A stretch of DNA of 38,498 bases, from positions 1 to 38,498 of the IMG/VR virus record IMGVR_UViG_3300045996_000907; one strand, given 5' to 3'. Made by a program: the position numbers and the translations under genes. This document shows positions 12,439-31,535 of this stretch, one piece after another (positions within the stretch are counted from its first letter, which is position 1; each line of letters opens with the position of its first letter). This DNA is from a virus. The notes below the pieces were generated by a model. That model was not told the DNA's origin, made no database searches, and saw nothing but the letters and a program-made list of their open reading frames with translations.

Positions 12439-14085
12439 CTAGTCTTCCAGCGACACCTCGTAGACGCCGCCGGCTGAGTGCCAATGGTCTGCGCGGGAGG
12501 GGTCTACGTTCCTGACCAATTTGCCCACCTTCACGGGCTGGTCGGTCACGGCGCCGGCACCTGCGTCCAGCAGGTCGTCAGCCTGGTCCGTCACCCCAGG
12601 GTTCCACCCCTTCATCTGGTCCCACAACGGCCCCTCCAGCACGTCGACGTGCGCCCACAGCATCCCGCTGCCGATCAGGGGCTCCAGCGCTTCCAGAATC
12701 CGCTTGTTCTTGTTCGTGACGGCCTGCACCTCGGTGATGCCGCAGGCCAGGCGCCGCTGCTTGAGGGCCATGCGCAGGAAGGACGCCGCGAAGCCGCCGA
12801 TGCCGTTGGATTCCAGCACCACGCGCGGGACCTGGAATTGCTCCACGATGTCGCACAGCTGCATGACCTGGCCGCCGATGATGGTCTTGCCGTCCTTGCT
12901 GGTCTCGGCGATCTCGCCGGTCAGGCCGACCACGCGGTGCCAGTAGTGGCGGCCGATCGCGTCCTGCAGGTCCAGCACCACGGCGGACACGTCGGAGTTG
13001 AGCTTGCCGCTGGAGGGGTCCCAGCGCAGGCTGCAGCTCTCGATCTTCGCGGCGCCCAGCCACATGGACAGCACGCGGTTGGACATCTGCAGCGTGGGCT
13101 CGCAGGCGTAGGGCACCACGCGCGCCGGGTCCAGGCGGATGTCGGTCAGCGGCTTGGCCTCCAGCCCGTACTGGCTGTCCCAGGCGTTCAGCGTGGGCGT
13201 CTCGCGCCGGCGGCGCTCGACCTCCTCGCGAGTGAAGCGCTCCGGCCAGGCGCAGCCGGCGTAGATGTCCAGCAGCTGCCCGGGCGGCTTGGCGAACACC
13301 ACCGCCCGCCCCTCCACCAGGTAGTCGCGGCCCTCCTGCAGCAGCCGGGCCGGCTTGCCGATCCCGACGAACACGTAGAGGCCATCGGCCGCGGGCGTGA
13401 AGGAGAACGGGAACCGCGTCAGGCTGCTGGCCTTGTCGGCGGAGTAGCGGTCGTGGTGTTCGAACAGGGGAATCTTCAGCACGGCGGCCCCTCCGGCGAT
13501 GCGCTCCGGGTAGATGGAGTCGTGGGTGTGCGGCGTGCCGATGTAGGTTTTCTGGGCGCCCGGCACGGCGATGTGGGTCGATTCGCTGATGCGCTGGCGC
13601 AGCTTCTTGCGGGCCTCGGCGGTCTCGATGTTGCCCGGCACCTCGATGTCGTCGAAGTCGACGTCGTCCGCGCGGGCGCCGGTGGCGTTGGAGGAGACTC
13701 CCACGGCGCGCATGCTGGCGTTGCGAGCGTCGCGGGCGCCGGTCACCCAGAAGCGCTTGGCTCCCGGCTTGGTGGGCAGCATGCCGCGGCACAGCGGGTG
13801 GTTGCGCAGCACGTTGATGGTGTCCGCGGTCAGCATGCCGGCGGTCTCGTTGTCGGCCGACCAGACCAGCGACCGGCGGTTGCGGTCTCGGTACAGCTTC
13901 CACGCCTTGTAGACCGCGTAGATCGTCGACTTGGCGGCGCCGCGGAAGATCATCAGCACGCGCTCCGGCTCGGTGCAGGTCTCCAGCCAGTGGCAGATCC
14001 GCACGTGCAGGCGCGGCACGACCCACCCCTGCATCCTGGCCCACATCAGGAAGAAGGCGAGGAAGCTAACCGGCCGTGCGTCCAT
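12439..14085 (-). CDS. terL: Terminase large subunit (T7 gp19-like), with internal beta-domain insert
   Basis: 548 residues. The ATPase has a variant Walker A, FRGAAKST (47-54), and a Walker B region around DDVDFDDIE (140-148). The C-terminal nuclease half includes SAVVLDLQDAIG, VVLESNGIGG and the late acidic stretch QADDLLDAGAG. It would pack concatemeric DNA into the procapsid through the portal. Between the two domains, at residues 211-277, lies a segment (LLQEGRDYLVEGRAVVF, then PPGQLLDIY) whose pattern matches the beta-domain of this phage's tailspike and tail tube protein. The gene overlaps terS by 20 bases and follows GGAAGG. Confidence 0.9.
   Translation of the reverse strand: MDARPVSFLAFFLMWARMQGWVVPRLHVRICHWLETCTEPERVLMIFRGAAKSTIYAVYKAWKLYRDRNRRSLVWSADNETAGMLTADTINVLRNHPLCRGMLPTKPGAKRFWVTGARDARNASMRAVGVSSNATGARADDVDFDDIEVPGNIETAEARKKLRQRISESTHIAVPGAQKTYIGTPHTHDSIYPERIAGGAAVLKIPLFEHHDRYSADKASSLTRFPFSFTPAADGLYVFVGIGKPARLLQEGRDYLVEGRAVVFAKPPGQLLDIYAGCAWPERFTREEVERRRRETPTLNAWDSQYGLEAKPLTDIRLDPARVVPYACEPTLQMSNRVLSMWLGAAKIESCSLRWDPSSGKLNSDVSAVVLDLQDAIGRHYWHRVVGLTGEIAETSKDGKTIIGGQVMQLCDIVEQFQVPRVVLESNGIGGFAASFLRMALKQRRLACGITEVQAVTNKNKRILEALEPLIGSGMLWAHVDVLEGPLWDQMKGWNPGVTDQADDLLDAGAGAVTDQPVKVGKLVRNVDPSRADHWHSAGGVYEVSLED
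12502..12517 (-). promoter_or_regulatory. Repeated 16-base motif, copy 1 (upstream of tailspike)
   Basis: On the minus strand this reads GGTCAGGAACGTAGAC, identical to the copy at 26221-26236 and close to 31274-31289. It lies inside the last codons of terL, about 100 bases before the tailspike start, and is preceded by an A/T-rich AAATT. Candidate late promoter, regulator-binding site or module-boundary sequence. Confidence 0.5.
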
Positions 14086-14455
14086 GCACCTTCCGGTCGA
14101 AAACGGTCTTGCGGGCGCCGTCCTGCATGTCCTTCAGCAGCTTGGCGGCCTCCTTCTCGTAGCCCTGCACCTCGGCGTCCAGGTGGTCCTGCTCGCCGCC
14201 TTCCGCCGGCTTCTCCGGCGTGGTGCCGGCGCCGCGCAGCTGCACCTGGCCGATGGTGACGGCGACGCGCTGCATCAGCGACAGCGTGGCCACCGCGTTC
14301 TTCTTCACCCAGTAACGGTCGCCCCGGGTCTTTTGGTCCATGGCGCCGGGGTCGATCCCGTGCCCGGGCCACTTCGCCGGCTCGGCCTCGCCGATGAAGA
14401 CGTCGGCCAGCTTTTCCTCGAGCTGCTGCAGCTTTTCGAATTGGTCCTGTCGCAT
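14066..14455 (-). CDS. terS: Terminase small subunit-like protein, 129 aa
   Basis: Start (14455) and upstream stop overlap as TGATG, and the end overlaps terL by 20 bases. The first 25 residues (MRQDQFEKLQQLEEKLADVF) form a coiled coil, followed by a polar region with KTRGDRYWVKKNAVATLSLM and a second helix, AEVQGYEKEAAKLLKDM. Small, helical, charged and directly before terL, it is best read as the DNA-recognition subunit of the packaging motor, analogous to T7 gp18. The call rests on context more than on sequence identity. Confidence 0.7.
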   Translation of the reverse strand: MRQDQFEKLQQLEEKLADVFIGEAEPAKWPGHGIDPGAMDQKTRGDRYWVKKNAVATLSLMQRVAVTIGQVQLRGAGTTPEKPAEGGEQDHLDAEVQGYEKEAAKLLKDMQDGARKTVFDRKVHGRTAG

Positions 14456-16932
14456 CACTTTCCTCCGATCGCTGAAAGGTCCGGCGCGCGATCCGGCGCG
14501 GCGTCGCCCGGCTCCCACCAGTAGCCCTGCCCCCAGTCCTTCGCCGCCCTCTGCCGCTGGCGCGCGAGGTAGCCGGGGCTCAGGTTCTCCTGGACGCCGT
14601 GCAGCAGCATGTGGTCGAGCGCGGCGCGGCCGTACCACAGGTTGATCAGCGGCAGGTGCGAGCGTCCAAAGCGCAGCGCCTCCGCGCCCATGTGGGTGTC
14701 CTTGCCGGCCAGCGCCTCGTCGGCGTTGCCCTTGGTGAGCTCGTACAGGTCGGCTAGGCTGCCAAAGGTCGGGCCCAGTGCCAGCTTGCCCAGGTTGTCC
14801 AGCGGGCTGCGGCTGTCGGTGGTGTCGCCCAGCAGGATGTCGCCCACGAACCCGGCGCCGCCGCCCTGGGCCGACGCGCGCACCCAGAATTTCGGCTTGG
14901 TCATGTCCACCGGGTCCTTGCCCTGCAGCATCTGCTTGACCTGGAAGACGATGGCGCCCAGCGCGGTGGTGCTGATGATCATGGCCGCCGAATAGGCCAG
15001 CTTGTTGCCCAGCACCGGCGCGCCCTCGACCTGCGGCGCATCCAGCATCCGGCGCCAGTGCCGCGAGATCATCGCGATGGGGAAGGACTTGAACTGCATC
15101 ACCGCGCGCGCGAGCTCGCCCTTGATCGTGCCGGTCTGCTCGCCGCCCCAGCTCTGGATCGCCTTGGTGGCCATGTCCGGATTGATCACCGCGTACTCGG
15201 ACTCGTCGGTGATGAAGCCCAGCACCTTGGCGGTCACCTCGTTGGCGCGCGGGTGGCCGCTGGCGGCGATGGCCTCCGGCGTGAGGAACTGGCTGCCGTT
15301 GTACGGGGTGAGCTGGGCGGCGTTGACCACCTCCCAGTCCACCTCCTCGATGCCCTTGCGCTGCAGGTGCGTGCGGTCCCACTCGGTCAGGTCCGCCCAC
15401 TTCTTGCCCGCCAGCCGGCCGAGCCCCTGCTGCATGGTCATGCTGAAGCCGCGGCGCAGGGTATCCGTCCAGGCGTTCATCAGCGACAGGCGCATGGTGC
15501 TGTTGGCCAGCCTGCCGCTCCAGTCGTTCCTGATGTTCTCGCCGGCCCAGCGGTTCAGGTCGTTGATCATGGACTCGGCGATCAGGCCGTGCGCCGCGGC
15601 GAACTCCTTGCCCTCCTTGGTGCCGCCCTTGATCGTGTTGCGCAGCAGGTCCCAGTACGGCAGCTTGTTGTAGCCGGTGGTGACCATGATGCTGCCCAGG
15701 TCCGTGAGGCTGGAGATCACCGCGCCGGCCAGCTTGCCGAAGGTCTGGATGTTGCGGGTGGTCTGCCCCACCAGGGCGATGCGCGCCGACTCGGGCGTGC
15801 TGGTGACGCCGGTGAGGATGTCCCAGTACGCCTCCGCCTTGTTCCCGAACACCCGCTTGCCGCCCTGGTCGGCCTGCGCGGCGATGTCGTTCTGCAGGCG
15901 GAACTGCTGGTTTGGGTTGGGGCCGTAGCGCTCGATCAGGGCGATGTCGCGGGCCATGCCGCCCACGTGCGCCACCATGGCGTCGTACATGCTGCCCAGG
16001 CCGTAGGCGCGGTTGTACTGCAGGAAGCTCTCGCCGTCCTTGAAGTGCAGCACCCGGCTGTCCATGCCGCGGTTCGCGCGCGCGCCGGAACCCTTGAAGG
16101 CGCCCGGCACCTGCTTGGACAGGCCGTCCGAGGCCAGCGTCTCATGCGCCGCGGTCAGCAGCTGCAGCACCTCGCCGTCGTTCATGCGGGAGCCGTCCTC
16201 GCGCACGTAGCGCCGGCGATCCAGCAGCCCCAGCGTCTGCGCGGCCCACTTCTGCGCGCCGGCCTGGCGGATGCGCGCGCTGTCGTGCGCCTGCGGCAGG
16301 TAGCCGTAGGCCAGCTTGCCCACGTCCCCGCCGGCGGCATTGAACCGGGTGCGCATGCCCTCGATGGTCTTCAGCCATGCCTCGGCGCCGGCGCGCGCGA
16401 TGGCGTTGCCGGTGCCCGCCTTGCCGTTGCCGAAGATCTCCGCCACCAGGTCGCGGGTCATGTCCGGGTTCTGGGCGTCGAACAGGAACTGCAGCACCTT
16501 GCGGCCGATGGTGGCGCCCTGCGTGCTGGTGGCGGCGTCCACCAGGTCCATCAGCTCGGACACGGCGGCGCGCTTGACGCCCTCCACGTACAGCTGGGTG
16601 TTCTCGATGTCGGCGACCAGGGCATGCGAGGCGCCACGGTCGGCATGCTGGGCGGCCAGGTTGGCGATGCGCTGCTGCGTGGCGGCCGTCGCGACCACCT
16701 GCCGCTGGGCGTTCGCCAGCTTCCGGGCGGCGGCGGCCTGCAGGTCCTGCATCGCGGCGGTGGCGGCCTCGGACACGCGCTGGTCGATGGCCTTGCCGCG
16801 CCAGCCTTCCGGGTCGGCCTGCGCCAGCCGGCGCATGGTGGCGTCCATCCGGTCGTCGATCGCCTTGACCTCGGCGTCGGAAAGGGCACGGCCTGCCGCT
16901 CGCGACACTGCCCTGATACATTCGGGTTTCAC
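14455..16932 (-). CDS. Large internal virion / DNA-ejection protein, 825 aa
   Basis: The start is a GTG at 16932 (VKPECIRAVSRAAGRALSDA) with AGGAAGGA about ten bases upstream. The N-terminal third is helical and Ala-rich. The middle contains hydrophobic stretches, and near residue 660 a segment (LAYSAAMIISTTALGAIVF) could cross a membrane. This fits the T7 gp15/gp16 type of core protein that is ejected with DNA and forms a channel through the cell envelope. It lacks a visible lytic transglycosylase motif. It lies between two other core-type genes and the terminase genes, in T7-like order. Its GTG abuts, back to back, the GTG of a plus-strand gene. Confidence 0.75.
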   Translation of the reverse strand: MKPECIRAVSRAAGRALSDAEVKAIDDRMDATMRRLAQADPEGWRGKAIDQRVSEAATAAMQDLQAAAARKLANAQRQVVATAATQQRIANLAAQHADRGASHALVADIENTQLYVEGVKRAAVSELMDLVDAATSTQGATIGRKVLQFLFDAQNPDMTRDLVAEIFGNGKAGTGNAIARAGAEAWLKTIEGMRTRFNAAGGDVGKLAYGYLPQAHDSARIRQAGAQKWAAQTLGLLDRRRYVREDGSRMNDGEVLQLLTAAHETLASDGLSKQVPGAFKGSGARANRGMDSRVLHFKDGESFLQYNRAYGLGSMYDAMVAHVGGMARDIALIERYGPNPNQQFRLQNDIAAQADQGGKRVFGNKAEAYWDILTGVTSTPESARIALVGQTTRNIQTFGKLAGAVISSLTDLGSIMVTTGYNKLPYWDLLRNTIKGGTKEGKEFAAAHGLIAESMINDLNRWAGENIRNDWSGRLANSTMRLSLMNAWTDTLRRGFSMTMQQGLGRLAGKKWADLTEWDRTHLQRKGIEEVDWEVVNAAQLTPYNGSQFLTPEAIAASGHPRANEVTAKVLGFITDESEYAVINPDMATKAIQSWGGEQTGTIKGELARAVMQFKSFPIAMISRHWRRMLDAPQVEGAPVLGNKLAYSAAMIISTTALGAIVFQVKQMLQGKDPVDMTKPKFWVRASAQGGGAGFVGDILLGDTTDSRSPLDNLGKLALGPTFGSLADLYELTKGNADEALAGKDTHMGAEALRFGRSHLPLINLWYGRAALDHMLLHGVQENLSPGYLARQRQRAAKDWGQGYWWEPGDAAPDRAPDLSAIGGK

Positions 16933-17130
16933 GTGGAATCCTTCCTCACCGCCCTGAAGACGGCCGGCGTCATCGCGCTGCTGGTGGTGGTGTTCGTGGG
17001 CGGCCCGATCCTGGCCATGACCGGCTCGCTGGCGCACGCCTGGCACGCGGTCAAGTCGTACAGCAAGGTCATGGGCGTGCTGGTCGCGATCGGGGCCGGG
17101 CTCGGGCTCATCGCGGCGTTCACAGGGTAG
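16933..17130 (+). CDS. 65-aa two-helix membrane protein encoded opposite to the late operon
   Basis: This plus-strand frame exactly fills the gap between two minus-strand core genes. From a GTG at 16933 it reads VESFLTALKTAGVIALLVVV, then GGPILAM, a short polar loop, and SYSKVMGVLVAIGAGLGLIA: two membrane helices. Almost every codon ends in G or C, as in the real genes here, whereas a random opposite-strand frame would not be expected to encode a clean two-helix protein. The start has no good ribosome-binding site; TACATT at 16917-16922 could be a -10 element, giving a leaderless message. The end overlaps the neighbouring gene by 11 bases. A holin-like or exclusion role is possible but unproven. 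Confidence 0.55.
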   Translation: MESFLTALKTAGVIALLVVVFVGGPILAMTGSLAHAWHAVKSYSKVMGVLVAIGAGLGLIAAFTG

Positions 17131-18511
17131 CCAGGAAGCACTCGGCCGCGGCCTGCACCAGCGGCACCTCGCGCAGGTCCTGCTCCAGCTCCTGGCGCAG
17201 GGAGGCCATCAGGTCGGCCGCGCGCACCGGCTTGTCCATCCCCTCCAGCTGCACCATCAGGTCGGGCGTGGCCTGCTCGATGGCGGTGGCACGGGCGTCG
17301 AGGGCGGGGTCTTCCACCGGGATGCCGTGGGGCTCGGCGGACTTGGCGGCCGGCGCAGCGGCGTCGGGCGTGCTTGCCGTGACTTGGGCATCGTCGACGG
17401 CGGCCAGCGGCGGCGCTTCCTGCACCACCCGCCCCAGCGCCGCATCCTGCTCGTCCATCGCCGCCTTGATCTCGGCCAGCCGCGGCGACAGCTCCCCGAC
17501 GATGCGCTCGCCCGCCGGCGCCACCTCCGCGACATCCACCCGGCGGCCGGCGGCCAGCTGGTCGATGGCCTGCTCGTAGGCGCGCTCGTGGGCAGCGGCG
17601 CCGGTGAAGTCCTCGGCTGGCACCGGGCGCGTGACGGTGACGTTCTCGGTGAGCAGCGCCGTGCGCGCGGCGTCCACCACCTCCGGCGCCGGTGCATGCG
17701 TGGTGCGTGCCGCGCGCATGGCGATGGCGCCGAAGCCGAAGGGCAGCACGGTCGACAGGGTCAGCCCCACCGGGTCGAAGGGGTCGTATTGCTCGGACAG
17801 CCGGGTGTAGTCGGCCTCGGCCAGGATGTGCCGCGTCGCGGCCTGCTGGGCGACATAGGCCGTGGGCCCGCCGGCGAGCGCCAGCCCGATGGTCTGCCCC
17901 CAGGTCTTGCCCGCCACCGGGAGCGCGAAGCTGCCGGCCTGCACCGCCGCGGTGACGGCGCCGACGGCGCTGCGGGTCTCCAGGTCCACGCCCTGCTGCG
18001 CCAGCTTGTCGGAGGCGGTGAAGCCCTCCTCCGCGCCGGAGACGACAGCGCCGGCCACCGGGCCCATCACGGCCGCCGCGGCGATGGCCTTGGTGCCGAC
18101 CCGGAACAGCTCGCCCACCGCCTGCTCCGCGGCGTGCGCGGTGGCCGGGTCCGGCATGTAGTCCCTCGACGCGTTGCGGAAGGACCGGCCGCCCTCGGAC
18201 ATGAAGTCCAGCCCCTCGGTGCGCATCTTCTCGGTGGCGGCGGCGTTTTCCTTGCGCTCCTTCGGGGTGGGCAGGGAGAACATGCCGCCGGCGCTGGGCT
18301 CGGTGGTGGCCAGCGCCTGGCCGAAGGCGCCGAGCAGGTCGGCGGTGGAGCCGGCCGCGTCGGCCGCGCCGGCCGCCATGCCCTTGGGCGCTGCCGTCAG
18401 CGTGCCCCAGATGGAGAAGCGCGGCGACTCCTTGCGCGGCGCCTGCGGGCGCTGCACCAGGTCCGTGGAGGCCGCCTGCAGGTCGCCCTCGTGGGCGTCG
18501 ATGATCGGCAT
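17120..18511 (-). CDS. Internal virion protein, Ala/Gly-rich, 463 aa
   Basis: Start 18511 shares a base with the upstream stop (TGATG). The product begins MPIIDAHEGDLQAASTDLVQ. It has small-residue hydrophobic stretches at about 135-165 (TKAIAAAAVMGPVAGAVV) and 185-240 (SFALPVAGKTWGQTIGLALA) that could insert into membranes after ejection. The C-terminal half is helical and acidic, with coiled-coil character. Position and composition fit one of the T7-like inner-core proteins ejected ahead of DNA. No enzymatic motif was recognised. Confidence 0.7.
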   Translation of the reverse strand: MPIIDAHEGDLQAASTDLVQRPQAPRKESPRFSIWGTLTAAPKGMAAGAADAAGSTADLLGAFGQALATTEPSAGGMFSLPTPKERKENAAATEKMRTEGLDFMSEGGRSFRNASRDYMPDPATAHAAEQAVGELFRVGTKAIAAAAVMGPVAGAVVSGAEEGFTASDKLAQQGVDLETRSAVGAVTAAVQAGSFALPVAGKTWGQTIGLALAGGPTAYVAQQAATRHILAEADYTRLSEQYDPFDPVGLTLSTVLPFGFGAIAMRAARTTHAPAPEVVDAARTALLTENVTVTRPVPAEDFTGAAAHERAYEQAIDQLAAGRRVDVAEVAPAGERIVGELSPRLAEIKAAMDEQDAALGRVVQEAPPLAAVDDAQVTASTPDAAAPAAKSAEPHGIPVEDPALDARATAIEQATPDLMVQLEGMDKPVRAADLMASLRQELEQDLREVPLVQAAAECFLATL

Positions 18512-20532
18512 CAGCGCACCTCCAGCGTCACCGGGCGGCCATCCTTGTCGGTGGCCAGCGAGCGGCCGGCGCGCACCTGGTAGCGGCCGTCGCCCACGGT
18601 CACCAGCGCGGCGTCGGGCACCTTCTTCATGAACTCGGCCGCCGGCATCGGCTTGCCGTCGATGTAGACCTCCGGCACCTTGATGGCGTCCGGCGTCAGC
18701 GCGCGCAGCTTGCGGTCGAAGTCGGCCTCCGGCAGCCCGTACGGCAGCAGCACCTTGCGCCCGCCGCGCTCGGTGACGCCGCCGGTGGCCAGCCGCACGG
18801 CCCGGCCCAGGTCGGCGTCGCCTTCCGAGCCCATGCCGTAGTAGGTCAGCACGGACGCCTCGATCAGCTGCTCGCGCGCCTCGCCCGCCACCGCGTCACC
18901 GATCTGCGCCGCCACCTGGGCGCGCACGCCGGTCAGCGCCGCGTTGTCCTCCTTCACCGCCCGGTCCTTCAGCGCCTGCGCGCCGCGCAGCACCAGCTCG
19001 GAGGCGTGCCGGCCGGAGGTGGTCTTGCTGCCGCCCATCGCGATGGCCAGCCCCAGCGCCTTGTCCTTGCTGGCGATCTGCCGGCCGATGGCGGAGGCCA
19101 TGCGCGGGCCGGCGGCCTGCGACAGTTCGGCGATGGCGGTGCTGCGCTGCTCCACCGGCAGCGCGGCGATCAGCTTGGAGACCTGCTCGGCCTCGGCGCG
19201 CAGCAGCGGCGAGACCGGCGCGCCCACGCGGGTGGACACGACCTGCGCCTGCTCGACGCGCGCGGCCAGGCCGGCGGTGGCGGCCCCGATAGAGCGGACG
19301 TCCAGCGGCGCGATCTGGGCCAGGATGCCGCGCTCCAGCGCCGCCGGCAGCGGGTCCTCGGAATAGTCCCGGCGCGCCGCGTCGCGGATCTGCTCGAGCT
19401 CCCGGAGCTGCTTTTCGGTCTTCGGGTCGGTGCCTGCGGAGTTGAGCTGGGCGCGCAGGCCGTTGATCGTGGAATCCATGACCGCGACCGGCTGGCTGCC
19501 GAAGGCGGCGTTCGTGCCGGCGGACTTCACCAGCTGCCCGAAGGCGGCGGCGTACGGCGTGCCGGCCATCTTCGCCATGGCGGAGGACACCCACTCCTGG
19601 CTGGGCATCTTGCCTTCCATCACCAGTGTGCGGCCGGCGTTGAATTCGGCCTCGGCGTTGCGCAGGGTGCGCTCGGCGTGGGCCTCCGCCCGGCGCGCCG
19701 CCGCTTCCGCCGCGGTGATGTTGGAGACGCGGAAGCCTTCGACCTGCGCCAGCAGCGTGGTGCGGCGCTGCGGATCCAGGTCGGCGAACTCGTCGCCGTT
19801 CAGGCGCGCGGCCACCGCGTCCAGCGCCTTGTTGTCCCGGCGGGCGCCGTTGACCAGCGTGCTGGCCATGTTGAACCGGGTCGATTCCTTCCACCTCTGG
19901 CCGGCCGCGCGGATCTGCTCCGTGGTCAGCCCGGCGGCCGGGCCGAGGTTGTTCAGCACCTCGTCGGTCAGCTTCTGCGCTCCGGCCGGATCCTTCAGGT
20001 AGGCGCGGCTGGTCTGCTCCAGCGTGCCGTTCAGGCTGGACAGGGTCTCGGTCTGGTCGCGCGCCACCACCGCCTTGCGCACGCCGCGCGAGAGGTTGCG
20101 CACCTTGTCCTGTAGCGCCGTCTGCACGGACGGCCGGTGCTCGTCCGGAACGTCCTCCATGGCGGAGCCCAGCAGCTCGGTGCTCTGGCGCTGCCACTCG
20201 GCGTCCACCTGGTCCTTCGGCACGCGGCCGGCCTTCACGTTCTCGGTGAAGTCGTCGTGCAGCGCCTGCAGGTTGTCGGCGCCGGCCAGCTGCTTGTTCA
20301 GCGCGGCCGCGCGCTCGGACGCCTTGCGCTGCGCCAGCGCCTCGCGCTCCTCCTGGCGCTTTTCGATGGCCAGCCGGCGCTCCTCGGCCTCGGCCTTGGC
20401 CAGCATGTTGTCGCCCACGACGGCGACCGCCTGGCTGACCGTCTCGCCGAAGGCACCGCGAGGCGCGCTCACCGCGCGCTGCGGCTCCGCGACGACGTTG
20501 CCGAACTGCTCACCGGCTGGGATTTTCGCCAT
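18511..20532 (-). CDS. Internal virion protein, long coiled coil, 673 aa
   Basis: After a short leader, residues 45-85 form a highly charged helix (AEAEERRLAIEKRQEEREAL), and most of the chain is predicted helical with Ala-rich heptads. The last 100 residues are mixed and end RSLATDKDGRPVTLEVR. This matches the large, helical inner-core proteins of T7-like phages (gp15 analogue). It lies three bases after the gp14-like gene and overlaps the next core gene by one base, so the three core proteins are produced together. Confidence 0.75.
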   Translation of the reverse strand: MAKIPAGEQFGNVVAEPQRAVSAPRGAFGETVSQAVAVVGDNMLAKAEAEERRLAIEKRQEEREALAQRKASERAAALNKQLAGADNLQALHDDFTENVKAGRVPKDQVDAEWQRQSTELLGSAMEDVPDEHRPSVQTALQDKVRNLSRGVRKAVVARDQTETLSSLNGTLEQTSRAYLKDPAGAQKLTDEVLNNLGPAAGLTTEQIRAAGQRWKESTRFNMASTLVNGARRDNKALDAVAARLNGDEFADLDPQRRTTLLAQVEGFRVSNITAAEAAARRAEAHAERTLRNAEAEFNAGRTLVMEGKMPSQEWVSSAMAKMAGTPYAAAFGQLVKSAGTNAAFGSQPVAVMDSTINGLRAQLNSAGTDPKTEKQLRELEQIRDAARRDYSEDPLPAALERGILAQIAPLDVRSIGAATAGLAARVEQAQVVSTRVGAPVSPLLRAEAEQVSKLIAALPVEQRSTAIAELSQAAGPRMASAIGRQIASKDKALGLAIAMGGSKTTSGRHASELVLRGAQALKDRAVKEDNAALTGVRAQVAAQIGDAVAGEAREQLIEASVLTYYGMGSEGDADLGRAVRLATGGVTERGGRKVLLPYGLPEADFDRKLRALTPDAIKVPEVYIDGKPMPAAEFMKKVPDAALVTVGDGRYQVRAGRSLATDKDGRPVTLEVR

Positions 20533-20535
20533 CGC

Positions 20536-24450: not shown

Positions 24451-24463
24451 GCAACCACCTCAA

Positions 24464-24495: not shown

Positions 24496-24531
24496 GAAAG
24501 CCCGCGAAGGGCGACCCATGAAGAAACCGAT

Positions 24532-25131
24532 TCAGCTCGGGAACAGGAACGGGACCTCGATGCGGATTTGCGCGTTCGCGGTCGGCGTGCCGCCGGCCAG
24601 CGTGGCGTACATGTAGCAGTCCGCGGTCGTCACGTACTCCACGCCATCCGCCACCAGGGCGCCGTCATTGAGCGCAGCGCGAGCCGCGGCGGTGGCCACG
24701 TCGAGCGCCGAGTGGATGCCGTCGGCGTCGATGGCCACGCCAGCGACGGTGCGCAGGCCCACGTCCAGGGTGATCGAGGTGCCCATGTCCGCATGCGAGG
24801 CGAAGCCGCCGCACAGCGGGCGCGAGCCCTTCGGGATCAGCACCGGGCTGGCGATGGTGTCGCCGTTCGCCCAGGTCACCGTGTCCGGCGAGGTGATCAC
24901 CACGTAGGTGGGCTTGCCGATGTCCGCGCCGGTCAGCTTGGTGCCGGCAGCGACCTTGGCCGCTTGCTTGGACACCTGCTCCGCCATCAGCACCAGGCCG
25001 CTGCGCTGCATGTGGGCGAAGGTCGCCTCGTGCAGCTTGTGGCCCAGCTCCTTGACGGTGGCCGGGGAGATCAGCGCGACCAGGAAGGCCAGCGCCAGGA
25101 CGATCATCATGATCAGGGTGAGCGATTTCAT
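24532..25131 (-). CDS. Head-associated protein with N-terminal membrane segment, 199 aa
   Basis: The N-terminus MKSLTLIMMIVLALAFLVAL is a strong signal-anchor or signal peptide, followed by a helix to about residue 65 and then a beta-rich domain (GDTIASPVLIPKGSRPL, then TVAGVAIDADGIHSALD and a terminal IRIEVPFLFPS) of head-decoration or head-fibre type. Directly downstream of the major capsid gene, a decoration role is expected, but a membrane segment on such a protein is unusual. Codon use is uniform throughout, so the segment is real coding sequence. The start has GGAGC upstream. Function is inferred from position only. Confidence 0.7.
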   Translation of the reverse strand: MKSLTLIMMIVLALAFLVALISPATVKELGHKLHEATFAHMQRSGLVLMAEQVSKQAAKVAAGTKLTGADIGKPTYVVITSPDTVTWANGDTIASPVLIPKGSRPLCGGFASHADMGTSITLDVGLRTVAGVAIDADGIHSALDVATAAARAALNDGALVADGVEYVTTADCYMYATLAGGTPTANAQIRIEVPFLFPS

Positions 25132-25167
25132 TTCGTGCTCCAGTTGGTGATCTGTGGTGGCGGTCGC

Positions 25168-26043
25168 TTACTGGTAAGCGATCTCGACGACCTTCTTGGC
25201 CTGCTGGCGGCCCGCGCCGTAGCTGGCCGCGAGCGACACCTGCGTCAGGTTCTTCTTGTCGCGGCGCGGACCCACGTCGCCTTCCTCGAAGCCCTTGCCC
25301 AGGTGGATGCCGGACTTCGCCCAGGCCACCGTGTAGTAGGTGGAGCTGGACACCGGGTCGATGCCTTCGAACGGCACCCAGTTGAAGCCCATCCACTTGC
25401 CGTCGATGGCGCCGGACTGCAGCATCCGCACCGCCATGAAGTCGGCGCTGGTCAGCGTGGTGTCGGACAGGATGTCCTCGAGCATGTCGGCCGTGTACAT
25501 GATGTACAGCTCCTCGCCGTTGTGCTCGTCGCACTCGTTGGCGCGGAAGATCTTGCGCGCGGTGATCAGCTTGGCCTTGGTGAAGCCGGTGCTGGAGTGC
25601 GCGATCTTCTGCGTGGAGGGCAGCACTTCGGAGGTGCCGTCCTTTTTCAGCTGGCTGTCGCGCGCGGCGCGGTAGATCAGGTAGTCCACCGTGCGGTTGC
25701 GCTTGGCGACCATCTTGGCCATGTAGTCGCCGCCGGTGACCGGGTTGTTGATCATCTTGGGGATGTCGTTCCGGTCCAGGGGCTTGGCGTCGAAGTAGTC
25801 CTTCATCGTCACCACCGCAGTGATGAAGATGTCGTCGGACCACTGGGTGTCGCCGTGGCGGACGGTGTTGAGCGGCAGGATGCTGCCGTCGTCGTCCAAG
25901 TTGGTGATGGTGAACGACTCGCCGACGATGGTGCCGCGGTCGGTGACCGCCTTCATCAGGCGGGATTCTTTCTGGGCGAGCTCCGCGCGCAGGGAGGTGT
26001 CCCACTGCTGCACGAAGGCTTGCGTGATGGTGGTGCCGGACAT
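25168..26043 (-). CDS. Major capsid protein
   Basis: 291 residues of the phage capsid type found in BPP-1-like podophages (HK97 fold expected). It begins MSGTTITQAFVQQWDTSLRA, contains DYFDAKPLDRNDIPKMINNP and LIYRAARDSQLKKDG, and ends with the typical stretch HLGKGFEEGDVGPRRDKKNL followed by a C-terminal strand. There is no sign of a cleaved prodomain. It follows the scaffold gene after a 198-base gap that holds a repeated regulatory motif, so it probably has extra transcription. CCTGAGAG-type spacing with AGGAG upstream of the ATG supports the start. Confidence 0.9.
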   Translation of the reverse strand: MSGTTITQAFVQQWDTSLRAELAQKESRLMKAVTDRGTIVGESFTITNLDDDGSILPLNTVRHGDTQWSDDIFITAVVTMKDYFDAKPLDRNDIPKMINNPVTGGDYMAKMVAKRNRTVDYLIYRAARDSQLKKDGTSEVLPSTQKIAHSSTGFTKAKLITARKIFRANECDEHNGEELYIMYTADMLEDILSDTTLTSADFMAVRMLQSGAIDGKWMGFNWVPFEGIDPVSSSTYYTVAWAKSGIHLGKGFEEGDVGPRRDKKNLTQVSLAASYGAGRQQAKKVVEIAYQ

Positions 26044-26241
26044 TTCGAGAACTCCTGAGAGGTTGAACGGGTTCAGCCTTGGGTTCAGGGTGTCCGGCGA
26101 GCCGGGCCTGCGCTACGGCGGTTGCGACCGGCTTATCACGTCGCTCCGCTCGGGCTTGCTGCAGGGTGTCCGGCTGCCACGCACGGGCCTGCTATGGGCC
26201 CGAAGTGTCAAGGGGTGTGCGTCTACGTTCCTGACCGAATT
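26044..26241. promoter_or_regulatory. Gap upstream of the capsid gene with repeats and a 16-base motif
   Basis: 198 bases without a gene between scaffold and capsid. On the minus strand it begins with the motif GGTCAGGAACGTAGAC (26236-26221) immediately after the scaffold stop, then an exact TTGACA (26211-26206) without a good -10 at 16-18 bases. A 13-base direct repeat, CAGGGTGTCCGGC, lies at 26086-26098 and 26162-26174, 76 bases apart and each followed by GGGCCTG. The simplest reading is a control region that boosts capsid transcription. Confidence 0.5.
26221..26236 (-). promoter_or_regulatory. Repeated 16-base motif, copy 2 (upstream of capsid)
   Basis: GGTCAGGAACGTAGAC on the minus strand, identical in all 16 positions to 12502-12517. 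It lies in non-coding sequence about 178 bases before the capsid start and five bases after the scaffold stop codon, with AAATTC just upstream. This copy is not constrained by a reading frame, which supports a DNA- or RNA-level function. Confidence 0.55.
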
Positions 26242-27108
26242 TCAGCGCAGCACCGGCTGGTTGCCGAACTTCGCCTCGAAGTGCGACTTCACCTTGGCGC
26301 TGACGCTGGCGTGGTCCTTGTGCTTCGGATCGCGGTACGCCTCCGACGACACCAGCGAGCCGATGTCCTCCACCGTCTGCGTGGTGGCGTTGCTCGGGGT
26401 GGTGTCCTCGCGCATCTCCTTGCCGAAGGCAGCCATGATCTGGATGAAGTCCGGGTCGCGGCCGAACTTCTCGAAGGCGGCATCCCGCGCGCCCTCCGGC
26501 GCGGCAGCCAGCGCGCGGTTCGCCGCAGCTACCCCGGCGTCAAGCTCGGCCGGGGACTTCCACACTTCGGACAGAGCTGCCTTCGCTTCGGCAGCGGTGT
26601 GGCTGGCCGCAGCGTTGAGCACCTGGGGCACCAGGGTGAAGTACTCGCCCATGACGAATTCGAACTGCTGCTGGTTGAGTCCGGCCTTGTGCGCCCGCTC
26701 ACGAAAGGACTTGCTCAGGCCCTCGTCGAGGGGGATGTCCTTGAACTGCTCGGGCGGCGTGAAAACGTAGGCGTCCGGCGTCTCCGGCGCAGCTTCGCCT
26801 GTGCCCAGCTTCTTCGACAGGTTGCCGTAGCCCTCGCCCAGCTTCTTGCTGGAGGCAGCGAGATCGAGCTTGCCGTCGGCGTCCATCACGCGGTACTTCT
26901 CCGGCAGCCAGGCCAGCTCGTCGGTGGTCGTCGTGGCGGCCTTGTCGTCGGCCTTGGCGCCCGGCTTGGCCAGCAGGCTTTCGGTCGTGGCGGTGTCGAC
27001 GGTCGTGGTGGTGGCCGTGGTCGCCTTGGTGTCGGCGGCGCCCTTGGTGTCCGCCGTGGTCGTAGCGGCGGTGTCAGCGGTTTCGGTGGTGGTCGCGGTT
27101 TCGCTCAT
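26242..27108 (-). CDS. Capsid scaffolding protein, Thr-rich N-terminus, 288 aa
   Basis: The N-terminal 65 residues are a low-complexity run of Thr, Ala, Asp and Lys. The helical body contains EKYRVMDADGKLDLAASSKK, a motif typical of T7-like and BPP-1-like scaffolds, and the C-terminus is basic (HASVSAKVKSHFEAKFG), as needed for binding coat protein. It would direct procapsid assembly around the portal and then leave. It lies between the Bbp19-like gene (4-base overlap) and the capsid gene. The Thr-rich tract has no obvious counterpart in T7 gp9. Confidence 0.85.
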   Translation of the reverse strand: MSETATTTETADTAATTTADTKGAADTKATTATTTTVDTATTESLLAKPGAKADDKAATTTTDELAWLPEKYRVMDADGKLDLAASSKKLGEGYGNLSKKLGTGEAAPETPDAYVFTPPEQFKDIPLDEGLSKSFRERAHKAGLNQQQFEFVMGEYFTLVPQVLNAAASHTAAEAKAALSEVWKSPAELDAGVAAANRALAAAPEGARDAAFEKFGRDPDFIQIMAAFGKEMREDTTPSNATTQTVEDIGSLVSSEAYRDPKHKDHASVSAKVKSHFEAKFGNQPVLR

Positions 27109-27365
27109 GGCATGTCTCCATCGGGTTGGTCGGATTCTTCTTCCACGCCGTCCGCCCGGTTGATCTGGCGGACGATGTACTCGACGACCTCGCGCTGGTG
27201 GGTGCGCACGAAGCCGCGCAGCATGCCCTCCTGCGTGAAGTCGTCCGGGTTCGGGCGGCGGCAGAAGCGCGCCTGCAGGTCCGCCAGCAGCACCTGGCCG
27301 CGGGCGTCGTCCTCGAAGATGGCCTTGTAGAGGGCGGGGAGGCGGTCGGCGTCGAGCGTCGTCAT
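27105..27365 (-). CDS. Bbp19-like small phage protein, 86 aa
   Basis: Start at 27365 (MTTLDADRLPALYKAIFEDD); longer forms would run into the opposite gene's promoter region. The pattern LYKAIFEDDARGQVLLADL, then a hydrophilic stretch and GFVRTHQREVVEYIVRQI, matches the small protein known from Bordetella phage BPP-1 as Bbp19, which sits between portal and scaffold genes in related phages. Role unknown, presumably in head assembly. Overlaps the scaffold start by four bases. Confidence 0.75.
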   Translation of the reverse strand: MTTLDADRLPALYKAIFEDDARGQVLLADLQARFCRRPNPDDFTQEGMLRGFVRTHQREVVEYIVRQINRADGVEEESDQPDGDMP

Positions 27366-27407
27366 GCTTCTGTTGATAATGGTCACGAAATTGCCCGGAG
27401 CGGAACG

Positions 27408-27617
27408 ATGCAGCGCGCTTTCGACATATATCGGCACAACGTCGCGGAAATCACAAGGCTTTTACAGACCTTCGCGCCGCGAATTAAGCACTCAATCAGC
27501 GGAGCACCACGAACGCTCCAGGTCGTCACCGTAGAGGGCGACGAGCCATATTTCTCAGCAGCCATCCACGAGCTGACCATCCTCATGCAACGCCAGCAGG
27601 CCGACGACTCTTGGTGA
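27408..27617 (+). CDS. 69-aa moron-like protein on the opposite strand
   Basis: A plus-strand gene inside the minus-strand late block. The ATG at 27408 follows CGGAGCGGA, and a GATAAT (27375-27380) could serve as -10. The product starts MQRAFDIYRHNVAEITRLLQ and ends MQRQQADDSW: soluble, helical and not recognised. Its codons are much less G/C-rich at third positions than the neighbouring genes, a sign of recent acquisition. It ends three bases from the esterase stop, tail-to-tail. Independent expression, lower GC and position between structural genes are the usual marks of a moron, a gene expressed from the prophage for host benefit or superinfection immunity. Confidence 0.55.
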   Translation: MQRAFDIYRHNVAEITRLLQTFAPRIKHSISGAPRTLQVVTVEGDEPYFSAAIHELTILMQRQQADDSW

Positions 27618-27620
27618 GGC

Positions 27621-28829
27621 TCATGCTTCGCCAAAGAGCGGCGTCTTCAGCTGCGCCCACAGGTACGCACCGATAGCGGCCGATCCAATGCCGCTCGGGT
27701 GAACGCGACTTCCAGCGACGCGCTCGGTTGCTTTGATGTTGGTGTCGCTCGCCGGAGTTGCGTGCAGCGCCCAGGCTTGGGACTGATCGACGTAGAACAC
27801 GTTATTCGCGGCCCCGCCGTAGCTTGCGTTATTCGCTACGTCAGAGATCCACGTGCGGATCGTCGGCAGGTTGGTGGTTCTGCTCGTTTCGTCGGAGCTG
27901 GAGGGTGAGAGAAAGACCACCCGGACGTCCTTGCCCGGGTAGAGCCGGTCGCGTCGATCAATCCACCCCTTGGCCGCTTCCTTGAACTTCGCTTCGGTTG
28001 GGAACTTGCTCGTCACCGCGTCATTCATCCCGTAGCTGACGAACCAGGTTTTCGCGTTGTGGAAGTATTTGCCGGAAGCGAGGTTGTAATACCCCTCCAG
28101 CATCGTCCGGCCATCCTCGGCCATGTTGCATACGATCTGAGCATCGACGCCAGCGGCCCGCGCTGCGTCAACGAAAACGCGCGACCAGTGCCAGTTTCCT
28201 AGGTACGCGCGAGCATCGGCGTCGTTGCCCATGTTGGGGCCGCCCCATGCCGTGCTGTCGCCGAACACGGCAATCGTCTCATCTCCATCGAGGTTCGTTT
28301 CGTCGTCCACCTCGTAGCCAGACGCGAGGAACGCGACATTCCTGCCATCGGTCGTCGGACTCTTGTACTTCAGCGTGAAGCTCGAGTTTTCTCCGATCAC
28401 GTAGCCTGCAGGCACGTCAATGGGGACGGACCCGCCACCAGAGCCGAACACCGCAGACAGCGTGGCGAAGTACGCCATGCCGCTACTGGTGACACCGAGC
28501 CACGTGTACCAGGCGGAGTTGTCGGGGGTCTGGTCGGCCTGGACGAGGCAGGCGCCGTCAGCAGACAGGGTGAGGCCCGTCAGGAAAAAACGCTTCCCCG
28601 GATAGACGAAAAAGCCGATGTTGGCAGAGACTGTGGCGCCAGCCGTTACTGCGGAGGGGGATGCGGCCCAGTTGGTCCCGGAGTAGACCCGGGGCCTTGC
28701 GCGCCCCGAAAGGATTGCGCGTTGCAGGAAGCTCTCGTTGGCAATCCCGACTGCTGATCGGCCGGTGACGGACGCCGCGTCCCCGCTGACCTCGTAGCCA
28801 TTGCTGCCAAGCACGGCATTCACACCCAT
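27621..28829 (-). CDS. SGNH/GDSL-type esterase with N-terminal beta-domain
   Basis: 402 residues. The C-terminal half is an SGNH hydrolase: block I VFGDST (nucleophile S192), block II Gly240 in MAEDGRT, block III GMND (267-270) and block V SRVHPSG with H377. The usual Asp three residues before the His is Ser374, so the site may work as a Ser-His dyad. Residues 1-180 form a beta-rich domain that may bind the virion or sugar. Such enzymes on phages remove acetyl groups from O-antigen or capsule. It lies between portal and Bbp19-like genes, where T7 has none. Its lower third-position GC suggests acquisition with the adjacent moron-like gene. Confidence 0.8.
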   Translation of the reverse strand: MGVNAVLGSNGYEVSGDAASVTGRSAVGIANESFLQRAILSGRARPRVYSGTNWAASPSAVTAGATVSANIGFFVYPGKRFFLTGLTLSADGACLVQADQTPDNSAWYTWLGVTSSGMAYFATLSAVFGSGGGSVPIDVPAGYVIGENSSFTLKYKSPTTDGRNVAFLASGYEVDDETNLDGDETIAVFGDSTAWGGPNMGNDADARAYLGNWHWSRVFVDAARAAGVDAQIVCNMAEDGRTMLEGYYNLASGKYFHNAKTWFVSYGMNDAVTSKFPTEAKFKEAAKGWIDRRDRLYPGKDVRVVFLSPSSSDETSRTTNLPTIRTWISDVANNASYGGAANNVFYVDQSQAWALHATPASDTNIKATERVAGSRVHPSGIGSAAIGAYLWAQLKTPLFGEA

Positions 28830-28838
28830 TTCGTTCTC

Positions 28839-30461
28839 CTATGTTCCCGTCGCCATGCGCTTGGCCATCGCAGCGCCGGCTTCCATCCCAACCTGCTGTT
28901 GCGCTTGCTGCTCCTGCGCCGCGGCCTGGGCCTGCTGGCGCATCTGCCGCACCTTGGCGACGGTCTTCTCGTCGCGCACCAGCTTCTGCGGCACGCCCAG
29001 CAGCTTGGCCTTGGTGCGCTTGCCTTCTTCCATGTCGTACACGTCGAGCACGGAGGGGTCCTGCGTTCCCTGCGCCGTGGCGAGCAGGTCGCCTTCGAAG
29101 CGGTCCATGCTGGCCACATCCTCCAGCTGCTGCGCCTTGGCCAGCGGCGAGAGGTAGCGCACCGTGAAGTTGCGCCCGCGCAGCGACTCCGGCGGCCGGC
29201 CCATGAGCGCGTAGCCGCTGGCCTCGTTGGCGCGCCAGGCAATCCCGAAGGTGCGCTCCACCAGCGGCTGCAGGAACTCCGCCTGCCTGCGCCCGAACAT
29301 CGGGCCGAGGATCTTGCGCAGGGTCTGCACGCGCACCGACCACTCGTAGGCCGTCTTCACCGGGCCATCCGCCGGCGGCAACTGGTCGGCCATCAGCACC
29401 TTGCGCACCGCGGCCTGCAGCTGCTCGATCTTCAGCGCGCCGTACTGCACGTTGGCGCCGGTGATCAGTGGCTTGATGCTGTCGACGCTGTTGGCCACGA
29501 TGACCTTGCGCGCGCCGATCTTGATGTTCTTGGTGTTCAGGACGCCGTCGTCCTCGGCGATCAGCGGCGGGGCCAGCGTGGTCTCCGCGCCCATCAGGTC
29601 CCACTTGACCACCTCGTTGAGCGTCTTCACGTCCGGCAGCGCGCGGGACATTGGGCCGGTGGCGTAGGCGCTGTTCGGCAGGCGCATCCAGCGCGGCACC
29701 ATGCACGGGAACTCGTGGTAGCCGCCCTCGCGCAGGACGTGGCTGGTGTCGACCTCCATGTGGCAGGACGCCACCGGCAGGTTCTTCGCCAGCTTGCCGC
29801 CCACCACGTACATCTCGCGCGGCTCGATCGCGTGCACGACCATGACCTTGGTCGCCAGCTTGCCCGCGGTGAAGTCCTGCCGGACCTTGTCGGACACGTT
29901 GTCGATGCCGTAGGTGGCGACCACCTGCGACACGTTCATCTCGACTTCGCGGTAGACCGTGTCCACCTTGCCGCCGACCTTGCGGCTGGCGATGTAGCAC
30001 TGCCCCAGCGGCCAGTTCTCGAAGTGGTAGCCGCCGCCCGGACCTTCCTCGCAGTACAGCACCGCCCAGCCGGCCACGAACTCGTCGGTGGTCTGGTCGA
30101 ACACCTCGGCGTCGAAGTTGCTGTTGTGGATGTTCTCCCAGATGAACTGCGAGCTGCCGTCCAGCCAGGTCGACTCCTCGTCGCTTTCGGTGCCCACGTC
30201 GATGCCGAACCAGCGGGCGTTCGCGGGGACGGTGCCGTCGACCATCGTCGCGGCGCCGACCTGCACGGAGTCGCCGGCGGTGGAGTCGAGGATGTTCGCC
30301 TTGCGCCGCTGAGCGTCGTTGGCGTCCGTGACCGTGGTCATGAAGCCGGAGCCGCGCTCGGGGTAGGACCAGTCGTAGCAGTCCTTCCAGACCTGCTCGT
30401 GCCGCTGGCGCTCGGCCTTCATGTCGGCCAGGGTGCGCTTGATGCGGGTCGGGTCAGCCAC
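28839..30461 (-). CDS. Portal (head-to-tail connecting) protein
   Basis: 540 residues from a GTG at 30461 (VADPTRIKRTLADMKAERQR) with GGAGC eight bases upstream; an ATG at 30509 in frame has no ribosome site and would lie deep in the preceding microgene. WKDCYDWSYPERGSGF, DSTAGDSVQVGAATMVDGTV and ANARWFGIDVG are hallmarks of the T7-like head-tail connector family (PF12236 type). The end is a Gln/Ala-rich coiled coil. Twelve copies would form the DNA channel used by the terminase. Overlaps the 42-aa gene by eight bases. Confidence 0.92.
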   Translation of the reverse strand: MADPTRIKRTLADMKAERQRHEQVWKDCYDWSYPERGSGFMTTVTDANDAQRRKANILDSTAGDSVQVGAATMVDGTVPANARWFGIDVGTESDEESTWLDGSSQFIWENIHNSNFDAEVFDQTTDEFVAGWAVLYCEEGPGGGYHFENWPLGQCYIASRKVGGKVDTVYREVEMNVSQVVATYGIDNVSDKVRQDFTAGKLATKVMVVHAIEPREMYVVGGKLAKNLPVASCHMEVDTSHVLREGGYHEFPCMVPRWMRLPNSAYATGPMSRALPDVKTLNEVVKWDLMGAETTLAPPLIAEDDGVLNTKNIKIGARKVIVANSVDSIKPLITGANVQYGALKIEQLQAAVRKVLMADQLPPADGPVKTAYEWSVRVQTLRKILGPMFGRRQAEFLQPLVERTFGIAWRANEASGYALMGRPPESLRGRNFTVRYLSPLAKAQQLEDVASMDRFEGDLLATAQGTQDPSVLDVYDMEEGKRTKAKLLGVPQKLVRDEKTVAKVRQMRQQAQAAAQEQQAQQQVGMEAGAAMAKRMATGT

Positions 30462-30582
30462 GGCGGATGCTCCGGATCTGGCCGCCAGCACCGCGGAAGG
30501 CGCGCGCACTCATCGCGGGGCGGATGGTGACGAAGCCGCGGCACACGCGGGCGGTGGCGAGGGCGATCAGCGACAGCTGCAT
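30454..30582 (-). CDS. 42-aa basic microprotein before the portal gene
   Basis: The ATG at 30582 shares a base with the preceding stop (TGATG), follows GGGGGTG and overlaps the portal start by eight bases, so it is tightly coupled on both sides. The product is MQLSLIALATARVCRGFVTI followed by a basic tail with RAFRGAGGQIRSIRRG. No family recognised. Virion or assembly role by position. Confidence 0.5.
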   Translation of the reverse strand: MQLSLIALATARVCRGFVTIRPAMSARAFRGAGGQIRSIRRG

Positions 30583-30851
30583 CACACCCCCAGCGTCTTG
30601 CGCCCGCCGCCAGCAGCAGCAGCGGTAGCCGGGGCACCGAGCGTGCCGCCACCGCCGCCGGTCAGCAGCGAGTTGTCGCGCATCGCCTTGCGGGTCATGC
30701 TGATCTTCGCGTTAGCGTTGCGGGTCGCCTCGGCTTCGGCCTTGGCGCGCTCCTCGGCCGGGTCCGGTCCCTTCTTGTCCGAAGCGGCGACGGCCTGCAT
30801 GGTGCTGGCACCAGCGGCCATCACAGCCATGAATTCCGCGCCGGTGCACAT
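30582..30851 (-). CDS. Small virion-type protein, 89 aa
   Basis: MCTGAEFMAVMAAGASTMQA, a charged helical centre (PAEERAKAEAEATRNANAK) and a Gly-rich end (LLTGGGGGTLGAP, then GGRKTLGV) follow the layout of a small protein conserved before the portal gene in many podophages, with the closing T-L-G motif. The N-terminus resembles that of the gp14-like protein (20536-21018). It may be a minor virion component. Function unknown. Confidence 0.65.
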   Translation of the reverse strand: MCTGAEFMAVMAAGASTMQAVAASDKKGPDPAEERAKAEAEATRNANAKISMTRKAMRDNSLLTGGGGGTLGAPATAAAAGGGRKTLGV

Positions 30852-30856
30852 GGCCG

Positions 30857-31219
30857 TCAGTCCTTCTTCGCCTGCTCGCCCATGCCGGGCGGGCAGTAGT
30901 AGCCCTCGGGCGTCAGCACGGAGGTGCGCTTGTGCGGCGGCAGCGCGGCCTGCTGGGCGATGGCGTCGGCCATGGAGACCTCGGGCGGGCCCTTGCGCGG
31001 CGCGGCGACCGGGGGCTTCGGCACGGCCCTGGCCTGGGCGGCCATGCGGGCGGCGACGCGGCGCTCGACCTCAGCGTCCAGGTCCGGCGGGAGCTCGTCA
31101 GCTTCGGCCTGCTCGGCGCCGCCGGCTGCAGCGTCAGGCTCCGCACCGTGCTCGGTCTCGGATTCCGTGGTCTGCGACTGGGCGCCGGGGGTTTGCGGCT
31201 GGAGCTTTTTCGTTGCCAT
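30857..31219 (-). CDS. Hydrophilic phage protein, 120 aa, first of the structural block
   Basis: ATG at 31219 (MATKKLQPQTPGAQ) with AAGGAA six bases upstream. The first half is Glu/Ala-rich and disordered, the middle a charged helix (DAEVERRVAARMAAQARA), and the end SVLTPEGYYCPPGMGEQAKK has conserved-looking aromatic and Cys residues. Not recognised. A copy of the repeated 16-base motif lies 55 bases upstream, so this gene may start a late transcription unit with the virion genes that follow. Confidence 0.65.
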   Translation of the reverse strand: MATKKLQPQTPGAQSQTTESETEHGAEPDAAAGGAEQAEADELPPDLDAEVERRVAARMAAQARAVPKPPVAAPRKGPPEVSMADAIAQQAALPPHKRTSVLTPEGYYCPPGMGEQAKKD

Positions 31220-31535
31220 TGCGTTCCTTGGGTGGGATGGATGGGGAAGCCGGGGCAGTGTCCGGGCGTGGGCGTGCACGTTCCTGACCTTTCTCGGCGG
31301 GGTGGTGCTGCACCTCGACGCTGGCCCGGTCCTTGCCGGTGACCTGCGACCACAGCCCGAGCAGCATCAGGCCGTCGTGGAACCGCGGCTCGGTGCCGGG
31401 GATGTTCTTCAGGTTGGAGACCCAGCCCTTGCTGCGCTCGACAGCCACGGCGATGCGCTCCAAGGACCAGCGGGCCCGCTCCAGGTCCACGATCACGCGG
31501 AACCAGTCGATGCGGCGGACCTTGGGGTAGGTCAT
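31134..31535 (-). CDS. Helix-turn-helix-like small phage protein, 133 aa
   Basis: The start at 31535 overlaps the previous stop (ATGA). Residues 1-65 (WFRVIVDLERARWSLERIAV, then ERSKGWVSNLKN and EPRFHDGLMLLGLW) form a compact helix-turn-helix resembling the DNA-binding domain of small terminases or regulators. The remainder is low-complexity and overlaps the next gene by 86 bases in another frame, carrying motif copy 3. The C-terminal half may simply be read-through of the regulatory sequence. It could be a late regulator or an accessory packaging protein. Confidence 0.65.
   Translation of the reverse strand: MTYPKVRRIDWFRVIVDLERARWSLERIAVAVERSKGWVSNLKNIPGTEPRFHDGLMLLGLWSQVTGKDRASVEVQHHPAEKGQERARPRPDTAPASPSIPPKERNGNEKAPAANPRRPVADHGIRDRARCGA
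31274..31289 (-). promoter_or_regulatory. Repeated 16-base motif, copy 3 (upstream of first structural gene)
   Basis: On the minus strand GGTCAGGAACGTGCAC, 14 of 16 identical to the copies at 12502 and 26221, with an A-rich GAGAAA just upstream. It lies within the end of the HTH gene and 55 bases before the start at 31219. Confidence 0.5.

Follow-up and report, generated by a model that had tools for sequence, protein, structure and literature searches.

At the middle promoters of bacteriophage T4, the MotA box is centred at −30 and replaces the −35 element of sigma70, while the −10 element is kept (PMC2988021). A small dimeric activator, the protein C of phage Mu, turns on the late promoters lys, I, P and mom, which are used by the host polymerase and show non-consensus −10 and −35 elements (PMC4461284), and the site of Mor lies at −43.5 (PMC4390567). 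Salmonella phage epsilon15 and phage phiV10 carry dyads of 16-17 bp before their terS, portal, tail-fibre and lysis genes (those before the lysis genes were seen in this analysis). These dyads (ATTACC-N3-GGTAAT), annotated as sites of the lysogeny repressor, are found in the immunity region as well. The promoters of T7-like single-subunit RNA polymerases, for their part, are a genome-specific motif that occurs in several copies, in one orientation and before blocks of genes.

The locus described here resembles the T4 case in that a phage-specific element takes the −35 place and several promoters would be read by one phage factor. It departs from it in that the MotA box lacks dyad symmetry and is read by MotA, a double-wing protein that works with AsiA and serves middle genes, whereas we find a dyad, an XRE-like helix-turn-helix (HTH) protein, for which an AsiA-like partner is not known, and late genes; the predicted fold of this protein is a four-helix XRE-like one and not a MotA-type double wing, although the mechanism may still be similar. 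With Mu C it would share the use of one small phage activator for several late promoters. The protein family, however, is a different one (no Mor match of the HTH protein in Pfam or NCBIfam, which places it outside the Mor/C family), the sites have a sequence of their own in each lineage, and the dyad lies at a shorter distance from the start than does the Mor site. Epsilon15 and phiV10 are alike in morphology, in gene order (capsid, portal) and in the dyads before late units, but those dyads extend to the immunity region and are unrelated in sequence to the ones reported here; moreover, in neither phage does a gene name point to a homologue of the HTH protein. Promoters of the T7 type differ from ours, which have a sigma70-type −10 at fixed spacing, and no phage RNA polymerase was matched among the approximately 35 open reading frames of the window that were scanned. 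From the sequence evidence, we regard it as quite probable that our phage has a late regulon in which a phage HTH activator replaces −35 recognition at three late promoters of the host sigma70 polymerase.

As a separate observation, the dyads of epsilon15 (L265; positions 12-27, 2931-2947 and 19895-19911) and phiV10 (L266; upstream of the portal, tail-fibre and lysis genes) appear by eye at the −35 position with AT-rich −10s, and a second repeated element, ATATGTGGTT, follows them by about 50 bases. It may be that they are late promoters and not just sites for a repressor.

Organization of the window

The window, i.e., the whole stretch of 38,498 nucleotides that was analysed, is a circularly closed virus contig (38.5 kb, 68.7% GC, with a 127-bp terminal repeat) of a podophage whose late genes occupy the minus strand: the HTH gene, portal, scaffold, capsid, tail proteins, terminase and tailspike. 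The features relevant to this work are as follows.

12502-12517, minus strand: site A, dyad (putative operator) GGTCAGGAACGTAGAC, inside the 3′ coding end of TerL; equivalent site in relatives
12484-12489, minus strand: predicted −10 hexamer of site A, GACCAT; spacing as in the family norm
12439-14085, minus strand: TerL (terminase large subunit) gene, which carries site A; PHROG 38, E 4e-66
10219-12399, minus strand: tailspike/tail fibre gene downstream of site A; ATG at 12399
26221-26236, minus strand: site B, dyad (putative operator) GGTCAGGAACGTAGAC, non-coding, after the scaffold gene; position conserved in relatives
26204-26209, minus strand: predicted −10 hexamer of site B, GACACT; spacing 1 bp below the family norm; predicted start near 26197
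26046-26197, minus strand: predicted leader (5′ UTR) of the capsid mRNA, containing two RNA hairpins (26162-26191 and 26086-26110) that are conserved
25168-26043, minus strand: major capsid protein gene downstream of site B; ATG at 26043; 45-66% identity to the capsids of L001, L026 and others
31274-31289, minus strand: site C, dyad (putative operator) GGTCAGGAACGTGCAC, in the 3′ end of the HTH gene, preceding the portal/structural operon
31257-31262, minus strand: predicted −10 hexamer of site C, GACACT; spacing 1 bp below the family norm
31134-31535, minus strand: single-domain XRE-like HTH protein of 133 aa, proposed late regulator; conserved upstream of portal
ATG at 31219, minus strand: first structural gene downstream of site C
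28839-30509, minus strand: portal (head-tail adaptor) gene, in the operon downstream of site C; PHROG 332, E 3e-134

A scan of the window gave no convincing additional site for terS or lysis genes. Three observations on other genes are recorded here. Between portal and scaffold lies a 402-aa gene (27621-28829, minus strand) with no PHROG match, whose GDS motif (VFGDST) would possibly make it an SGNH hydrolase cargo gene. The tail-fibre gene at 7915-8499 contains repeats of about 66 bases (HTH[T/A]IS.VTGLQAALDAK) of the usual fibre type. Finally, the homologue of the virion protein gene at 14455-17046 is interrupted near residue 595 in five relatives (L017, L018, L022, L024 and L025), at the same place and by about 650-900 bases, which is possibly an intein, an intron or a homing element.

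The repeated motif

An earlier note on this DNA had drawn attention to a 16-base motif repeated before late genes, and its description of the three copies is accurate: sites A and B are exact and site C agrees at 14/16 positions, all on the minus strand, the distances it gave to the next late gene fit the starts of the tailspike, capsid and first structural genes, and two copies do lie in gene ends, namely the 3′ ends of TerL and of the HTH gene. Its argument that an exact 16-base repeat is not expected in 38 kb was mistaken, since first-order Markov simulations at this GC content give a mean of 1.8 such repeats, with at least one in 75% of the runs, and the window itself contains about a dozen unrelated exact 16-base repeats. 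Exact 16-mers being common in a window so rich in GC, we rejected any significance drawn from repetition alone. For this motif in particular, four matches were observed at three or fewer mismatches against 0.22 expected per shuffle, which is suggestive, and the fourth of them (34159, plus strand) looks like chance. The motif is thus considered functional because it is conserved in relatives and not because it is repeated.

Translation passes through the two coding copies in different frames (KLVRNVD versus KGQERAR), so the motif is one of DNA and not of protein. Site A makes use of rare codons, with AGG accounting for 10/315 Arg codons and GTA for 3/390 Val codons in the late genes. The change of frame in the HTH gene together with these rare codons led us to discard a protein-level explanation of the TerL copy. 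Conserved TerL codons (DDW/EDW) account in part for the sequence of the A sites, which is a point against the promoter model proposed below.

Counterpart sites in relatives

Relatives were taken as contigs sharing the late proteins (25 viral and three bacterial contigs), and no close relative at the DNA level was found among named phages. The conservation of the motif at these positions, on which the earlier note had made its reading depend, holds for the positions, for the dyad and for its spacing to the −10, and fails for the literal sequence: apart from one TerL-end site in L019, the literal motif gave only chance matches in relatives. About 20 related podophages have instead, at the equivalent places, copies of another motif that is particular to each genome; the places are the end of the TerL gene, the gap between scaffold and capsid, and the end of the small HTH gene before the portal operon, where the counterpart of site C was found. 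Examples are CAAACAGCCGGGAAACCTGAC, present twice in L004, GCGCAGAGATTTCTGCGG, present twice in L020, and AAAAGTCGGGAAACCGACC in the genome of L010. The best ungapped match between the TerL-end and the scaffold-capsid regions has a median score of 15 within genomes versus a mean of 9.3 between genomes, and only 1% of the between-genome pairs reach that median. A search over all the sequence fetched from each genome gave two or three copies at these places, depending on the completeness of the contig, and only weak matches elsewhere. The copies in relatives are all in the sense orientation, and with every site in sense, a reading as operators of free orientation was dropped.

Relatives derived from isolates extend this picture. 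A prophage of E. coli B379 (L264; HTH protein WP_001619027.1, C promoter at 19490-19550) carries five sites, each with one mismatch or none, in sense and with the −10 in register; they precede the portal unit, the capsid, terS, the lysis unit and, from inside TerL, the tail fibre. Yersinia phage YeP4 (L143) has the equivalent five sites with one or two mismatches and the −10 in register. No copy of the dyad was seen near the repressor genes or the immunity region of either the E. coli prophage or YeP4, so that they do not show the epsilon15-type arrangement, in which the same dyad lies in the immunity region. Where an additional module separates the HTH gene from portal, each unit comes with a site of its own. 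On a broader scale, when 2.9 million viral contigs of IMG/VR were scanned for the dyad plus the −10, 63 of the 79 stretches listed encode this phage family and, among the matches listed, 76/76 sites are on the strand of the family's genes; at least 585 relatives by portal are present in IMG/VR. The family dyad was not found in BPP-1 or Piluca, which is weak evidence, as the same scan also missed the YeP4 sites.

Anatomy of the sites

An ungapped alignment on the invariant GA gives the family site as GTCGG-GAWN-CCGAC, with an A/T tract just upstream. In derived lineages the dyad is kept with changed arms (GGGCAG/CTGCCC, GACGG/CCGTC, GCAGA/TCTGC), and in the window's own clade its right half is degenerate or weak. 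The arms co-vary between genomes, their complementarity exceeding that of shuffled arms (p=1e-4).

Downstream of the dyad, an A at +23 accompanied by a T at +27 is found in 80/84 ungapped capsid-upstream (B) and portal-upstream (C) sites, which come from 42 deduplicated genomes and include one mis-called site of L066; any other offset reaches at most 6/84. Among the TerL-end (A) sites the −10 agrees in 15/18. An A and a T at these positions are the two key positions of the sigma70 −10 element, and a sigma70-type promoter that depends on an activator is expected to show A(−11) and T(−7) in its −10 at a constant distance from the activator's site, as is the case here. Phages rich in GC have GACACT as the hexamer, and AACAAT or CATTAT is found in those richer in AT. 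The window shows a real deviation from the family norm, the −10s of sites B and C being one base closer and site A normal; this and the degenerate right half of the dyad in its clade are points against the promoter model proposed below. From the fixed −10 distance it follows that the dyad would span approximately −39 to −26, with its centre at about −32.5, where a −35 box would be. The hexamer at the −35 position is GGGAWN and not TTGACA, so that the site lies near or over the −35 region of promoters with no consensus −35.

This arrangement bears on two readings that the earlier note had proposed besides a promoter or activator site. At the RNA level the element would be a hairpin, its 5-bp stem capped by a GAWN loop, that serves in processing, antitermination or protein binding, and the asymmetric centre of the dyad, its constant transcription in sense and its hairpin-like arms are what such a reading would draw on. 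Nevertheless, the −10 at fixed distance puts the motif upstream of the start site, so the predicted transcripts begin downstream of it, the loops (GATT, GAAC, GATC) are not a tetraloop class, and the arms track a DNA-recognition helix (see below); we consider an RNA element very improbable. The motif could also be a module-boundary sequence maintained by recombination or used in it, as its copies are identical within a genome and sit at module edges. We give this almost no credence, given that the positions and the −10 spacing are conserved across very diverged phages, that the arms co-vary, that new transcription units bring their own copy, and that recombination has no need of a −10.

The HTH protein as the candidate factor

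A gene for a small HTH protein is conserved just upstream of site C and portal in nearly all relatives, and site C often overlaps its stop codon. In the lytic transcription unit the gene follows those of the Cro-like protein and the primase and comes just before the late genes. The AF2 model shows a four-helix core (residues 11-20, 25-31, 36-44 and 52-66) with pLDDT >90, and the best Foldseek matches are SinR, C-proteins and lambda cI (probabilities of 0.95-1.0, E 0.04-0.3). The modelled protein thus fits an XRE/Cro-CI-type fold, which has four to five helices, with Foldseek E-values that are only modest. Profile matches were obtained with PHROG 17493 and PHROG 16553, and no Pfam or NCBIfam family came above the cut-off.

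The recognition helix is helix 3. Across 45 genomes, and with portal divergence controlled for, its sequence follows the arms of the motif (partial r 0.41, p=2e-4), and the remaining helices contribute nothing further when helix 3 is taken into account. Because an automated caller had misplaced the sites of the window, L066, L070, L099 and L102, those of the window and of L070 were set by hand for this test, and L066, L099 and L102 left out. When both portal and the other helices are controlled for, r is 0.45-0.49 (p≤2e-4) in sets of 33, 27 or 20 non-redundant genomes; the other helices of the protein, given helix 3, show r of about −0.05 (p about 0.7). Helices such as ...VSNLKN, VDNLKN and VWNLKN go with TCAGG, and ...TLLGWKQ with GTCGG. 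The XRE-like HTH protein encoded upstream of the late operon is therefore likely to be the cognate factor of the sites. The dyads might still be operators of a CI/LexA-like immunity repressor or of a Cro-like protein, as the immunity-repressor dyads of the late genes of epsilon15 and phiV10 would suggest, with the HTH correlation reflecting linkage by descent. Linkage alone, however, would not leave helix 3 as the only correlated part after control for portal and the rest of the protein, and there are no sites in the immunity regions checked, so we find this improbable.

A closer competitor keeps the same promoters and the same HTH protein, but makes it a repressor that covers the −35 region, so that the late promoters would be silent in lysogeny or early infection. 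PHROG 16553 is in fact labelled 'transcriptional repressor', and in epsilon15 the annotation assigns to the repressor the dyads that precede terS, portal and tail-fibre genes. On the other hand, with no usable −35 hexamer under the dyad and a weak −10, the bare promoter should be nearly dead, the HTH gene is in a lytic unit just before the late genes, a position like that of lambda Q, and the immunity regions of the E. coli prophage and YeP4 have no copy, unlike that of epsilon15. Repression is accordingly judged unlikely, and activation is favoured because there is no −35 hexamer, the −10s are weak and the HTH gene closes the lytic unit before the late genes. Altogether, of the functions first suggested for the motif, a late promoter or activator site is the one strongly supported, by the fixed distance to the −10, the sense orientation, the location before late units and the covariation with the HTH recognition helix.

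RNA hairpins in the predicted capsid leader

A separate feature is the pair of conserved hairpins (window 26086-26191, minus strand) in the predicted leader of the capsid mRNA, a leader that has equivalents in L026, L049, L073, L142 and other relatives. The hairpins follow the form NNGG-C-CCG-loop-CGG-A(C/T)A(A/C)-CCNN, with compensatory changes in the outer and inner stems across relatives, and no Rfam match was obtained for this RNA. We consider them a candidate for a new translational operator or a put-like antiterminator. In gamma-proteobacterial relatives the second of the capsid-leader hairpins, GCCGGGAAACCGAY (L264:23086, L143:21462), resembles the promoter dyad; the one at L264:23086 has no −10 in register.

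A proposed model for late-gene activation

From the features computed in the genomes (conserved positions, orientation, the dyad, fixed −10 spacing, within-genome identity and helix-3/motif covariation) we infer binding, dimerisation, activation rather than repression, and timing along the following lines. Sites A, B and C would be the upstream halves of three late promoters for the host sigma70 RNA polymerase, each made of a weak −10 (GACACT or GACCAT) and a dyad near −32.5 instead of a −35 box. The HTH protein, encoded by the last gene before the late operon, would be made earlier in the lytic cycle and would bind the dyads, as a dimer in most relatives. Once bound, it would recruit or reposition the polymerase and switch on the portal, capsid and tailspike units jointly. 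With one factor reading all the sites, factor and sites would have to change together, and each phage lineage would therefore have its private motif. The HTH protein is in this way probably the switch that turns on the virus assembly genes.

A wider proposal, put forward tentatively and with more doubt than confidence, is that a large and mostly uncultured group of podophages uses a late-gene switch of a new class, in which an HTH protein of about 80-130 aa replaces sigma region 4 at −35 with no partner protein, giving many orthogonal factor/promoter pairs whose code may be readable from helix 3. The searchable literature, which is thin in subscription papers, holds no account that we could find of late-gene control in this widespread phage group, and the motif strings matched only unrelated primers there. 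In this regard, the present analysis names a factor, its sites and a regulon (portal, capsid, terminase, tail and lysis) that can be tested in laboratory E. coli. The dyad plus −10 offers a simple route to promoters and unit boundaries in uncultured phages, and the factor/promoter pairs are candidate orthogonal expression parts. As a natural series of matched activators and promoters, these lineage-specific pairs would moreover be useful for learning how the specificity of HTH proteins evolves.
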